64,000 bases of DNA, taken from assembly GCF_004920405.1 (NCBI RefSeq), contig NZ_RFLV01000003.1, positions 310,001-374,000 of the forward strand, in the 5' to 3' direction. A program made the position numbers and the translations under genes. Shown one piece after another: positions 59,277-64,000 of this stretch (positions are counted from its first letter, which is position 1; the number at the start of each line of letters is the position of its first letter). Under the pieces are notes generated by a model. It saw nothing but the letters and a program-made list of their open reading frames with translations. It ran no database searches and was not told the DNA's origin. Source of the stretch: Pseudomonas leptonychotis. Lineage in GTDB: Bacteria; Pseudomonadota; Gammaproteobacteria; Pseudomonadales; Pseudomonadaceae.

Positions 59277-62200
59277 TCAGCTCGCCTGGGCGAACTCCGG
59301 CGGGATCACGCAGAACTTGGCCGGCAAGTGAATCAAGGTGGTAAACGCCCGGAAGTCCGCGGCTTCATCGCCTGCATCCAACTGCACTTGAATACTGCCA
59401 CCTTCGGCTTCGAGGAACTCACGCACCGCGTCCATACCTACACCGCGCCCGGACACCTCAGTGACTTGCTCGGCAGTGGAAAAGCCAGAGGCAAAGATCA
59501 AGTTAGCCACTTCGCGCGCCGATGGACGCGCCGTACCGGCAGGATAAATGCCCACCTCCAGCGCCTTTTCAAACAGCTTAGTGATGGCGATGCCGCGGCC
59601 ATCATCACGTATCGCAAAGGTTATTCCGTCGTCATTTTCCAGGGTATCGATACCAATCAACCCCTGCTCAGGCTTGCCCACAGATAGCCGCTCGGCAGCA
59701 CTCTCAATGCCGTGATCCATCGCGTTACGCAGCACATGCATAAAGATATTGTTGAGCATGCTGTGCGCTTCTCTGCGCGTGTAGACATCATGCTCGGCTA
59801 TCTCGATACGCGGCGCCGGCTTGCCCAGTTCAGCAGCCAGGGACTGCACCGAGGTCAGCACGTCAGCGATTACTGCACCCAACGGCTCGGCATCAATCGA
59901 GGCCAGTGAGTGGTAGGTATCTCGCACAATATTGATCACATTGGCCGGCAACTCAGTGTTGGATAGGGCGGCAATGCTCTCCATCAGGCGGCTGATCTGC
60001 TCGCGATCAACGCGCGCACCAGCGATGCCTTGCTTGCCATCGCGGCCTAACTTGTCCTTGAAAATACCGCGATACACCTTGATCGCTTGCTCGGCAAACG
60101 CCAGCTCACCGAGCAGCTCCTGCGGCTGCCATTGCATGTCGTCATTCTTACGCAGCTGGTCGTAGGTGTTCTCGATACGGTGCACGGTGTCGGTAATGTG
60201 CTTAAGCCCATAGGTGCGCGCATTGCCTTTAACCGTATGGATATTGCGGAACAGCTCAGCCAACTTGCCCAGATCTTTCTGTTGAGTTTGCTCAATGATG
60301 GTGCGGCATTTACCGACAAAGGACTCGGAGCCTTCAATGAAGTCGCTGAACTTGTCAGCATCTACCGAGAGCACTTCGCCAATGATCATCAGCTCTTGCT
60401 TCTGCCCTTCCGCCTCGGCCTGTAGCGCTTTGAGTGCAGTGACGTCGCGCACTGTGACCATCAATTTGGTGATCACGTCCTGATCATCCACGATCGGGTC
60501 CCAATCCAACTCAATCAGCTTGTTCGGCTTATCGACAAACTCCAGCGTCAGTTCGGTGACCAGCAGGTGCGAGTTGAACTCGTACATCATCGAATCTTCA
60601 CCCACGATGGACGCCACCGCAGTGGATGCCGCGTCGATAACGTCGGCGCCAAGCGTCGAGCTACGGAACATCAAATCGACAAAGTTACGGTTGGCGATTT
60701 CCTTGGTCTCGAAAATGGTTTCCAGATACGCCGCGTACTCGGGATGGATCAAGCCGCCTTCGATGATGGTAAACAGCCCCTGGTGCATGTTGGAGAACAT
60801 GTTGGCAATGTCATCGTTCTTCTGTTTCAGCGCCGCTGTGCGCTCCTCGACTTTGCGCTCCAGGGTGCGGTTATGCTCTTCGATTACCTCAACCATGCGG
60901 ATGTTTTTGATGGTGGTCACCAATGAACGCGCCACGGAGGCCACAAACTCGTAATCGCTGTCCGCGAAGACCACTTTGTTGACATCGCCGGAGAAGTTCA
61001 TCACGCCGATAAGAATGTCTTTGTCCACCAGCGGGACGCAGAGCAATGCCTTGGACTTCTCGTTTTCACCACCCACATAGGTGGAGTCGCGGCTGGTATC
61101 GGGTACAAACAAGGCTTTCTTCGAGGACGCTGCACGGCCAATGATGCCCTCGCCCATGGTGAAGGTAATCGCCGAAGGCGCACCGTCCATTTGCTTGGGC
61201 GGCAGGAAGGCTTTGGCCTCCAGCTCGTTGTCCTTGTTGAACAGGTACACCGAACCGCGCTCAATGCCGATTTTTTCGTACATGGCGTGCAATACCAGCT
61301 CCAGTGCTGAGTCCTGATCACGCGCAGCGGCCAGGGTGCCACCTATGCCGTTGAGCTTGGCCAGATCAATCATCTTTTTACGAATAGCCAGGCGCATGGA
61401 GTTGAAGTTTTGCGTGGCCAGTGCCAGCAAAATGATCAAGATCATAATGGTGCTTTTGAACCCGAAGCTCACACTGTCGCCGAGCTCCGCTTGCAGGCGA
61501 TTGAACTGCGCATCGGCCGAAACCAAAACCTCATCAAGCCCCGTCACCGATTTTTCCACGGCGGCCTTGGACGCACTCAGCTGCTCGCGGGCAGTTTCCG
61601 CCTGGGTGAGCTGCTCAATTTTGTAGTCCACAAGGCTCGGTTGCGCTTTGAGCCGTGCACGCAGGGCCTCCACGCTGTCACGTGCGGTTTGGATGATATT
61701 GGCATCATCCATGGGCTCGAAAAGTGGGGCGGCCTTATCGAACCACGACATCGATCCGTTGATGATGAACTCGAAGTCATCCTGGGCGCTTTCCAGGCGG
61801 TCACTGGCTTCACTGACCTGAATTTCCTGGGCGGCCTTGGCCACACCTGCCATCAAGGCATCGGCCTGGTTGGCAAAGCCCTGAGCCAACTCCAAATCCT
61901 TTTCCAAGGCTTTGCTTGGCGCACGGGCGTTAACGATTTCCATAAAAGCAAAACCGACATCGTCGGAGCGCTCCATGACCACCGCAACCTCATCTTCAGC
62001 CTGCTGCTTGGCCACCAGCACAGCAAGTTTGGCGTCGAACATCTGGCGCACGGCCGCGGTGTACACCTCGTAATTACGCTTAATTTCGGCGACCAGCTCA
62101 GCACGTTGCGGGTCCGCCTGAGCGAGGCTTTCAAGTTGCTTGAAGCCTTCTGCAAACTCCCCAGCCCCTCTCTCGAAGTCATCGCGATAAGGTCGAATAT

Positions 62201-62438
62201 CCGCTTCGCTTAACGCGTTAAAGCCCAGTGCGCTGAGATTAGCCAATTTGAGCAGGCGAATTTGCACTTTGTTGACTTCGGTAACAACGGGCACCGCTGT
62301 TTCCTGCACCCGTTGATTGGACCGGCTGATGTCACTCAATGTCCACAATGACATTCCGCCGGATATCGTCAACAACACCAGAATAATGGCAAATCCAAAC
62401 GCCACTTTCTGGTTGAAGCTCAATTTGAGACTGGGCAT
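59277..62438 (-). CDS. Membrane CheA-like histidine kinase with GAF, PAS-like, HPt and HATPase domains
   Basis: This 1053-residue protein begins with a membrane helix (11-34), a long periplasmic helical sensor (35-327) and a second membrane helix (328-345). Then follow GAF (about 375-512), a coiled coil (515-545), a PAS-like region (545-670), HPt (690-795) with His734 in NIHTVKGNARTYG, a linker and HATPase (890-1040). ATPase boxes are intact: MHVLRNAMDHGIE, IRDDGRGI and GRGVGMDAVREFLEAEGG. There is no HAMP, no P2-type CheY-binding domain and no CheW-like P5. It is the last gene of a three-gene operon with CheY and CheX-like genes. An in-frame start at 62501 is less likely. Confidence 0.85.
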   Translation of the reverse strand: MPSLKLSFNQKVAFGFAIILVLLTISGGMSLWTLSDISRSNQRVQETAVPVVTEVNKVQIRLLKLANLSALGFNALSEADIRPYRDDFERGAGEFAEGFKQLESLAQADPQRAELVAEIKRNYEVYTAAVRQMFDAKLAVLVAKQQAEDEVAVVMERSDDVGFAFMEIVNARAPSKALEKDLELAQGFANQADALMAGVAKAAQEIQVSEASDRLESAQDDFEFIINGSMSWFDKAAPLFEPMDDANIIQTARDSVEALRARLKAQPSLVDYKIEQLTQAETAREQLSASKAAVEKSVTGLDEVLVSADAQFNRLQAELGDSVSFGFKSTIMILIILLALATQNFNSMRLAIRKKMIDLAKLNGIGGTLAAARDQDSALELVLHAMYEKIGIERGSVYLFNKDNELEAKAFLPPKQMDGAPSAITFTMGEGIIGRAASSKKALFVPDTSRDSTYVGGENEKSKALLCVPLVDKDILIGVMNFSGDVNKVVFADSDYEFVASVARSLVTTIKNIRMVEVIEEHNRTLERKVEERTAALKQKNDDIANMFSNMHQGLFTIIEGGLIHPEYAAYLETIFETKEIANRNFVDLMFRSSTLGADVIDAASTAVASIVGEDSMMYEFNSHLLVTELTLEFVDKPNKLIELDWDPIVDDQDVITKLMVTVRDVTALKALQAEAEGQKQELMIIGEVLSVDADKFSDFIEGSESFVGKCRTIIEQTQQKDLGKLAELFRNIHTVKGNARTYGLKHITDTVHRIENTYDQLRKNDDMQWQPQELLGELAFAEQAIKVYRGIFKDKLGRDGKQGIAGARVDREQISRLMESIAALSNTELPANVINIVRDTYHSLASIDAEPLGAVIADVLTSVQSLAAELGKPAPRIEIAEHDVYTRREAHSMLNNIFMHVLRNAMDHGIESAAERLSVGKPEQGLIGIDTLENDDGITFAIRDDGRGIAITKLFEKALEVGIYPAGTARPSAREVANLIFASGFSTAEQVTEVSGRGVGMDAVREFLEAEGGSIQVQLDAGDEAADFRAFTTLIHLPAKFCVIPPEFAQAS

Positions 62439-62550
62439 GCAACCACCATTTATTGGATATTTTGTTTTTATATTCCAACTAGCAAGCGAGGCCTCCAACA
62501 CGACCGGCCAAGGTCGCTGGGTCGACGCGTGTGCAACCTAGGTATTACTG

Positions 62551-62919
62551 TCAGCCGGCAACCAGTTTCTGAATTGCACCTAATGCATTGGCGCCGTTGA
62601 AGGGTTTAACAATCCAGCCTTTGACCCCAGCCGCTTTACCCCGGCTTTTCATATTGGGGTCGTTTTCCGTGGTCAACATAATGATATTGACGGTCTGATT
62701 GCCCAATTCGCTGCGGATTTTCTCGGCCATGGTCAAGCCATCCATATTCGGCATATTGACGTCCGATATCACCAGTTTGACCGCCGAATCCATCTTCAGC
62801 TTGGTGAGCCCATCTTTGCCATCCACCGCGACCTCAACGCTAAAACCGTTATTTTTGAGGAATGCTGCCACTTCGTTACGGATTGCAGCGCTGTCATCTA
62901 CTACGAGTATTTGTGCCAT
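62551..62919 (-). CDS. CheY-like single-domain response regulator
   Basis: This 122-residue stand-alone receiver has a complete phosphorylation site: Asp8/Asp9, Asp53 in VISDVNMP, Thr83/84 in MLTTEND and Lys105 in IVKPF. With no output domain it must act by binding a partner or as a relay. Its neighbours are a pseudo-receiver/CheX protein (upstream by 67 bases) and a CheA-like kinase (downstream by 112). The likely flow is His734 of the kinase to Asp53, then removal by the CheX domain. It resembles CheY, PilG and PilH in general features. Confidence 0.9.
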   Translation of the reverse strand: MAQILVVDDSAAIRNEVAAFLKNNGFSVEVAVDGKDGLTKLKMDSAVKLVISDVNMPNMDGLTMAEKIRSELGNQTVNIIMLTTENDPNMKSRGKAAGVKGWIVKPFNGANALGAIQKLVAG

Positions 62920-62986
62920 TGGATTCAGCCTTACCTATTTTTATTGTTAAGCCTAAAAGCTAGAAATGCCCGCGCCCCTGGGTCAT

Positions 62987-63979
62987 CTAGAACAACTCCA
63001 GACAACCACTTTCTACCAGCTCTTCCACGCTGTTTTCGTCAGCCTGGCGATACTCTTCTGGCGACCAGCGGATATTGAAGATGAACTTCTGGTACAGCGT
63101 GACCGGGGCCAGCCGATCGTGACGATCGCGCAAGGTGTACTTGAAACACAGCTGAGAACGGTCGGTGCCAAAGGAGATGTACTCTTTGTACTGATTGACC
63201 GTGATCGGGACGCTGATACGGGTTTCCTCACCACTTTGCACAGGATGCAGGGCGAGTAAACGGGTGCGCAGCCCCCCCCATGCCAGGTTGGTAATCTCGC
63301 TCAGCATGCCCATCACATCGCGAAAATCGACATGCGTGCCATCAATAGACGTCCGCCCGTCCTTGATCAACTCGAGCATCGGCTGCTCTTCGGATTGCAC
63401 CATCATGTATCCGCTGAACCAGGGGGCCTCGACCGGCAACAAACTGAGGATGTCGCCATAGGTCAGCTTGTCCTTGACCAGATAAGGCAGCTCATTGCTC
63501 ACCTCGATATCGCGGAACAGGGCATTCAAGGAGCTATGGGTGATTTCTTCGATGCGGCGAATTAACGAGATAGGGTATTCGGTGTCGGCCAAGTACTGAT
63601 CGAGCAGCAGCTTGAAGCTTTCGGGACGTTCGATGTCATAGGCACCCGCGATGCCCTTGCGCGCCTCTGGGCTCAAATCATCCAGATCGCTGCGACCCTC
63701 GCGGCGGATAAAGATGGGGAGTTCCCGGCGTAACTGATGAATGTGTCGAGCCAGGGCAAACCCGTCGGCAATGCCGGAGGCCGGGTCCGTACAGCTTTCT
63801 GAAATCAGCACGGCGCCTAGGTCGATGTTACTTTCCAGCATGTTCATCGCCGAGTGCTGGGCTTGTTTCAAGCCAATCAGTCCATACTCGGCACACAAGG
63901 CCTTGAGCTCGACCTGGGCCGACGCCACATCCTCGAAGATCAACACCTTACTCACCAACTGCCTGTCAAAACCAATCAT
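62987..63979 (-). CDS. Pseudo-receiver fused to a CheX-like phosphatase domain
   Basis: The N-terminal part of this 330-residue protein (about 10-130) has a receiver-like layout (VLIFEDVAS; LISES; IERPES). Glu61 stands at the phospho-Asp position and Arg118 replaces the conserved Lys, so phosphorylation is unlikely. Residues about 165-315 resemble CheX/CheC phosphatases, with the ExxN signature at Glu228-Ile-Thr-Asn231. CheX dephosphorylates CheY in bacteria lacking CheZ. It is the first gene of the operon; the stretch from 63980 to the window end holds its start region (AGGGG upstream). The fold assignment is inferred from motifs. Confidence 0.7.
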   Translation of the reverse strand: MIGFDRQLVSKVLIFEDVASAQVELKALCAEYGLIGLKQAQHSAMNMLESNIDLGAVLISESCTDPASGIADGFALARHIHQLRRELPIFIRREGRSDLDDLSPEARKGIAGAYDIERPESFKLLLDQYLADTEYPISLIRRIEEITHSSLNALFRDIEVSNELPYLVKDKLTYGDILSLLPVEAPWFSGYMMVQSEEQPMLELIKDGRTSIDGTHVDFRDVMGMLSEITNLAWGGLRTRLLALHPVQSGEETRISVPITVNQYKEYISFGTDRSQLCFKYTLRDRHDRLAPVTLYQKFIFNIRWSPEEYRQADENSVEELVESGCLELF

Positions 63980-64000
63980 CGTTACGCTACCCCTGCCATA

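Follow-up and report, generated by a model that had tools for sequence, protein, structure and literature searches.

In chemosensory systems, by definition, sensing falls to the receptors and not to the kinase, CheA. A CheW domain is given for 100% of 13673 CheA proteins in an excerpt of a published survey, a set for which this domain may have been the criterion of selection (PMC10542144). Here we describe a gene cassette of Pseudomonas leptonychotis that lies at the end of a stretch of 64,000 nucleotides (assembly GCF_004920405.1, contig NZ_RFLV01000003.1, positions 310,001 to 374,000; G000:C3:310001-374000, hereafter the window) and continues into the adjoining stretch L003 (G000:C3:368000-386000). 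It encodes a sensor kinase, a CheY, a protein with a pseudo-receiver and a CheX domain (RecX), a second CheX-like protein (CheX2) and a short methyl-accepting chemotaxis protein (mini-MCP). We propose that together they make up a five-gene module of chemosensory type in rearranged form, in which a phosphorelay sensed by the kinase is reset by CheX proteins and linked to the host array by the mini-MCP, a proposal that we regard as evenly poised. The cassette is real and conserved. It includes an MCP signalling domain protein and a kinase with a histidine phosphotransfer (HPt) domain and a CheA-like P4 core, as CheA-type systems do. It would work in the manner of a CheA/CheY/CheX phosphorelay, but it lacks the coupling through CheW and P5 by which a CheA chemosensory system is defined. 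No account of a P5-less CheA with CheX, or of the cassette, was found in the open literature, subscription papers lying outside that search, and to this extent the cassette is undescribed.

An earlier sequence-only reading of the window had described three same-strand genes, for the kinase, the CheY and the pseudo-receiver/CheX protein, as a self-contained phosphorelay without MCP or CheW. All three genes were found on the minus strand as described (Table 1), and the operon indeed has no CheW gene, as the 14 CheW-domain matches of the genome all lie on contigs C1, C2 and C6 and none on C3. The apparent lack of an MCP arose because the window ends before the operon does. The operon crosses the window edge at base 64000, and the genes for CheX2 and the mini-MCP follow upstream of RecX, separated from each other by a 3-base gap and with 34 bases from the end of CheX2 to RecX; 'without MCP', 'self-contained' and the absence of a receptor had to be given up. 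An MCP gene immediately upstream had been named as a sign against that reading as a whole. One does lie two genes upstream of RecX, and the finding survives in a changed form because this mini-MCP lacks a sensor domain and P5 and CheW are both absent from the module.

Conservation extends to the whole quintet. All five genes stand together in 14 of the 19 RecX loci inspected, from Gamma- and Betaproteobacteria, and the order MCP-CheX2-RecX-CheY is identical in the 15 loci that hold all four, with the kinase downstream, upstream or divergent. The trio first noticed is conserved across genomes as expected, as part of a quintet kept between families. A kinase scan of named genomes gave nine loci. 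The remaining four genes are present in seven of them (three Pseudomonas, Oleiphilus, two Pleionea and Algicola), and another, L015, ends at a contig end. Completeness is not merely an effect of recruiting by the kinase, since 6 of the 11 loci found through RecX are also complete. The module is rare and scattered: the RecX profile matched in 3 of 368 other genomes of the class, 2 of 198 of the genus and 5 of 389 of the order (one of these five being partial and one already in the class draw), and in none of 39 other genomes from the order of G239. Six records of large replicons of Caballeronia and Burkholderia carry RecX, and both of those inspected are complete quintets. The large protein set holds 468 RecX relatives, and its mini-MCP relatives include one from Rhodocyclaceae among the matches listed. 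G593 (gammaproteobacterium HdN1) appears to have a kinase and a mini-MCP among its proteins, neither within two 19-kb stretches around its RecX genes. Three locus rows were dropped, namely L038 (the L012 locus), L036 (a partial match in G703) and L015, and G485 and G982, which give identical matches, were counted once.

The kinase has 1053 residues counted from its ATG; the 1074 residues of the open reading frame list start at an upstream GTG. A transmembrane segment and helical periplasmic sensor (about 49-310) are followed by GAF (375-507), an HPt domain with its phosphoacceptor His at residue 734, and CheA-type P3/P4. Pfam placed GAF, HATPase_c, Hpt and TarH over the cut-off and 4HB_MCP_1 below it. 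The architecture originally read from the sequence thus holds for the sensor, GAF, His734 and HATPase; its PAS-like region (about 552-664) has no Pfam match, and we consider it probable from the fitting order of elements in an AlphaFold2 model. The claim that this kinase has no CheW-like P5 was borne out, with no Pfam match to CheW/P5 at E<=1 and only 48 residues after the G2 box. At E<=1e-4, 10 of 12 PDB matches were CheA kinase-core structures, with E down to 1e-30, and no PDB alignment covers a P5 because the CheA matches align no further than residue 1023. No HisKA match was found in the window kinase at E<=1, no CheW domain in the 11 kinases scanned, and no PF01584 in 120 listed of 3697 kinase relatives from the large protein set. 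Among loci the sensors differ (TarH/4HB-like with GAF, HAMP with GAF, PAS, or 4HB with HAMP) and the HPt-P4 part is constant; the motif script used for these kinases missed the N box in 6 of 16 and the G2 box in 2 of 16 (L019, L040).

A conserved binding-protein-like gene pair adjoins the module or the kinase in four loci (L018:4527-6220, L019:4416-6178, L017:660-2356 and L040:13214-14907), with ABC_sub_bind over the cut-off in L040 only. Such a pair would be fitting for a kinase that senses. Genes for Peripla_BP_4 and HATPase_c kinase proteins lie further out in L019, and L040 also encodes a TonB-dependent receptor.

RecX was predicted as a receiver followed by CheX. Its Pfam CheX match has E 1e-6 and 29.2 bits against a cut-off of 27, and both the CheX fold and the ExxN pair are present, in agreement with its first description as a pseudo-receiver/CheX neighbour of CheY; the ExxN assignment rests on alignment columns that do not include L026-L029, L039-L043, L062 and L063. 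CheX2 appears to be a divergent CheX-like protein by its sequence: its profile reached PDB CheX only at E 0.11, while ExxN is found in 15 of 15 CheX2 proteins. CheX2 also carries a GMSTP motif. RecX and CheX2 have in common a GxLExF-type C-terminal tail, with one residue past the motif in 1 of 19 RecX tails (L040). A strict DNA pattern for the tail matched only CheX2 in the genome, a narrow test that misses the GCLELF of RecX itself. At L027:6284-9883 there is a further RecX that has diverged (25% identity) but has this tail too; genes for a HAMP/HATPase_c kinase and for a receiver-PAS protein lie close by, and the stretch has no CheX2 or mini-MCP.

The mini-MCP has one transmembrane helix, a long coil and a classical signalling tip. 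Only MCPsignal exceeds the Pfam cut-off, with no match to a sensor domain or HAMP. The strict tip pattern LxLNA[AS]IEAARAG[ED]xGRGFAVVAxEV is found in 13 of 15 mini-MCPs, and the distance from the tip to the C-terminus is 69-74 residues in 14 of 15. In each of the 13 gammaproteobacterial proteins, 159-165 residues separate the tip Glu from the transmembrane end, which was set by the 19-residue window of best hydropathy. Because this span is fixed despite a mean coil identity of 18% among 10 representatives (nine gamma, one beta), length is conserved where sequence is not. At the helical rise of 0.149 nm per residue, a 160-residue mini-MCP helix would span about 24 nm. Membrane-to-baseplate heights in V. 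cholerae are given as 25 nm for F6 and 38 nm for F7 arrays in an excerpt of PMC7534058, and the 25-nm distance is given for E. coli also (excerpt of PMC8064477). In a full-length MCP from L039 the last transmembrane segment ends near residue 230 and the tip stands at 421, with a HAMP presumed. We read the mini-MCP as a rod whose length would bring it to the baseplate of the common array.

After the tip, all 15 mini-MCPs carry a conserved FQD[VI]QA, with G, S, C or V as the next residue. An FQD motif is also known from CheZ, where it accompanies a catalytic Gln. This Gln is missing in 15 of 15, and CheZ-like phosphatase activity of the mini-MCP was rejected. In PHROGs the mini-MCP matched only one unnamed family. 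A second MCP-domain protein (384 residues) and a STAS-domain protein follow the module CheY at L026:6473-7981.

Further pointers come from the promoter and the hosts. The FliA consensus is given as TAAAGTTT-N11-GCCGATAA in an excerpt of PMC7286023. FliA-like sites agreeing at 13-14 of 16 positions are present before the mini-MCP in L003, L012, L013 and L014, four of the five Pseudomonas loci; that of L003 lies 150 bases before the start. Another is found in L028 (14 of 16). The scan kept used a spacer of 11, A or C at position 2 and a null of random windows from the same locus, of which 1-4 in 300 scored as high as the five kept sites, windows that contain the site itself being included; it covered 16 upstream regions from 12 loci, 5 of them with a site. 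Another scan (spacers 10-12, strict T-A-A-A, compared with shuffles) also exceeded shuffles at L020 (13 of 16, spacer 10; kinase upstream of MCP) and L019 (12 of 16). These two were not kept, the kept scan having given 11 of 16 before the L020 kinase and 10 of 16 at L019. A general sigma-70/terminator scan gave no more matches than shuffles. Within the P. leptonychotis genome the Pseudomonas-site pattern has three matches, one of them exact and the others with a single mismatch each, against none for the reversed control; they precede the module operon, motY and a 161-residue protein. The site upstream of this last protein, whose function is unknown, has one mismatch and lies just before its gene (L061, G000:C8:2137-2162). 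FliM and CheW were found in all 14 distinct RecX-carrying genomes tested, with FliM in 190 of 369 class genomes, a co-occurrence not corrected for phylogeny and with no CheW background.

The module adjoins mpl in four Pseudomonas carriers. It stands between mpl and acoR in the window genome and in L013, with eutB on the far side in L014 and other genes in L012. Beyond the mini-MCP, L003 holds a regulator, a dehydrogenase, a transporter and further genes, which we take to include an acoR-like regulator, an aldehyde dehydrogenase and eutB-like genes. The Mpl of G382 is 96% identical, and in that genome acoR and mpl are neighbours, separated by about 150 bases and no module. Fifteen Pseudomonas stretches without a RecX match, hand-picked and not random from 58 genomes with an Mpl match, show the module at mpl in none and acoR next to mpl in seven. 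In G505 (L039) the module is at a different site. The GC content of the P. leptonychotis module is 54.8% against 60.5% for the window. The mpl-acoR neighbours without a module, the other site in G505 and the lower GC together support an accessory insertion beside mpl, as had been supposed, here between mpl and the acoR, aldehyde dehydrogenase and eut block; the lower GC and different site suggest horizontal transfer. Carriage by a phage or tRNA was considered and rejected: L003 has no tRNA, L003:1-10000 no Rfam match and the phage collection no RecX relative, and 24 pattern matches in viral contigs were none of them confirmed, transposases and integrases not having been searched for. On the other side of mpl, past a gene we take to be ubiX-like, a protein with periplasmic-binding, PAS, GGDEF and EAL domains is encoded at window:54172-56811, and no link to the module was seen.

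Table 1. Positions of the module genes and of the FliA-like site
Feature	Position	Strand	Remarks
Sensor kinase, 1053 residues	59277..62438	-	Domains by Pfam and sequence reading
CheY, complete single-domain receiver, 122 residues	62551..62919	-	Response_reg E 5e-25
RecX, pseudo-receiver, CheX phosphatase domain and disordered C-terminal tail ending GCLELF, 330 residues	62987..63979	-	Pfam CheX
CheX2, second CheX-like protein, 197 residues	L003:6015-6608		Outside window, upstream in RecX operon
Mini-MCP, 288 residues, MCP signalling domain	L003:6612-7478		Outside window, upstream in RecX operon; PF00015 E 2.7e-16
FliA-like site	L003:7629-7654		Outside window, upstream of mini-MCP

From these parts we propose the following scheme. 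The kinase, in which the domains and catalytic motifs are present, would sense through its own periplasmic helical domain and its GAF/PAS-like region and autophosphorylate at His734. The phosphoryl group would pass to the module CheY, as operon linkage and intact residues suggest, and CheX2 and RecX, given the RecX fold and the ExxN pair, would dephosphorylate CheY~P. Their acidic-aromatic C-terminal tail may dock a common partner, most likely CheY. The mini-MCP, having no sensor domain, would form a membrane rod with its tip at the baseplate depth of the 25-nm chemotaxis array of the host, and may in this way place the phosphorelay at the array, or feed into it, beside the flagellar motor. 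The phosphorelay part is well supported by its anatomy. That the module is linked to motility and to the host array we infer from its tip and fixed length together with the promoter and hosts, and for the output partner of CheY the indirect pointers are to the chemotaxis/flagellar machinery.

Several observations weigh against this scheme. In L017 the kinase occurs without the four other genes on its 7.3-kb contig, and 5 of the 19 RecX loci are incomplete (L028 without the kinase, L043 with CheY and RecX, and L027, L041 and L042 with RecX alone). Two betaproteobacterial mini-MCPs miss the strict tip pattern, keeping EAARA, and are shorter from the transmembrane end to the tip Glu (146-147 residues). 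CheX2 falls below the Pfam CheX cut-off (22.4 bits against 27). No FliA-like site was found in the other 11 of the 16 upstream regions, and in Pseudomonas L039 nothing above 10 of 16 occurs in 720 bases around the start. The FliM/CheW co-occurrence carries the limits given above, and in 3 of its 14 genomes the module is incomplete around RecX (G593 RecX alone, G577 CheY and RecX, G239 no kinase near). Finally, the closest CheY of known structure makes direct motor control by the module CheY doubtful, as the next paragraph sets out.

The best PDB match of this CheY is 4h60/4hnr (E 2.9e-25), V. cholerae CheY4, which is reported not to bind FliM in an excerpt of PMC3774744. CheY4 is the closest solved CheY by sequence and has the same beta5 Trp, found in the window CheY as GWIVKPF and in all 14 module CheYs read as WIVKPF. 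We accordingly regard it as quite improbable that the module CheY~P acts on the flagellar motor as the CheY of the main pathway does, switching it by binding to FliM/FliN, even though the receiver is complete, the promoter is FliA-like and FliM is present throughout the RecX-carrying genomes tested. The same excerpt (PMC3774744) puts forward that CheY4 may serve as a sink, and two CheX-like proteins for one CheY would suit a module that drains phosphoryl groups to tune another pathway; we hold this to be highly improbable, as the same unit encodes a dedicated kinase with a large sensor, needless for a pure sink.

An autonomous module is possible, if on the unlikely side. Here the mini-MCP tip would serve the cassette alone, as a membrane dock for either the CheX-like proteins or the P5-less kinase, and the output of CheY would go to another target than chemotaxis. 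The colinearity of the mini-MCP with CheX2, RecX and CheY in every locus that holds the four, an operon without CheW or P5, and the CheY4-like receiver with its reported lack of FliM binding (excerpt of PMC3774744) all agree with such a module. The tip, though, still has the sequence of a classical MCP, and the length is fixed and array-like, which is hard to explain if contacts to P5/CheW had been given up, and the FliA-like promoter of the Pseudomonas loci also argues against autonomy. The array-linked module that we prefer has a more specific form, which we think unlikely: the mini-MCP would be an output adaptor whose bare tip enters the host F6 array, the phosphorelay would shift the CheA state through that tip, and the pseudo-receiver and GxLExF tails would couple CheY~P to the rod. 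If true, chemotaxis would gain a new sensory input from a transferable cassette, with no need for a further chemoreceptor. More generally, entry of the mini-MCP into arrays would give separate kinases a route to signal to chemotaxis arrays, and would make chemosensory cross-talk testable with one small gene cassette.

Compared with known systems, the module has the MCP tip, HPt, CheA-type P3/P4 and CheY of canonical CheA/CheW/MCP systems (the F6 flagellar class, V. cholerae cluster II), and its predicted tip depth of about 24 nm lies close to the 25 nm of the canonical F6 array. Unlike canonical CheA, its kinase carries the sensor and has no P5; the unit has no CheW, and no CheR or CheB was seen among the genes read in L003, where no family search was aimed at either. 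Classical MCPs differ from the mini-MCP in having a sensor domain and HAMP. The helical sensors of TorS-type kinases and of the receptors McpS, McpZ and PilJ are similar to that of the module kinase. TorS is a HisKA hybrid kinase, whereas the module has HPt-P3-P4 and a separate CheY. Set beside the known CheX phosphatases (T. maritima CheX, the B. burgdorferi CheX-CheY complex 3hzh and V. vulnificus CheX 6vpw), RecX is fused behind a pseudo-receiver and CheX2 is a second, divergent CheX-like protein with GMSTP; the GxLExF-type tail in which both end may be a further difference. V. cholerae CheY4 sits in chemotaxis cluster III with cheA3, cheW2/3, cheR3, cheB3 and cheD (excerpt of PMC3774744), whereas the neighbours of the module CheY are CheX-like proteins and a P5-less kinase. 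In the module, a CheA-like kinase family of reversed layout is paired, in Gamma- and Betaproteobacteria, with a receptor that has lost its sensor.

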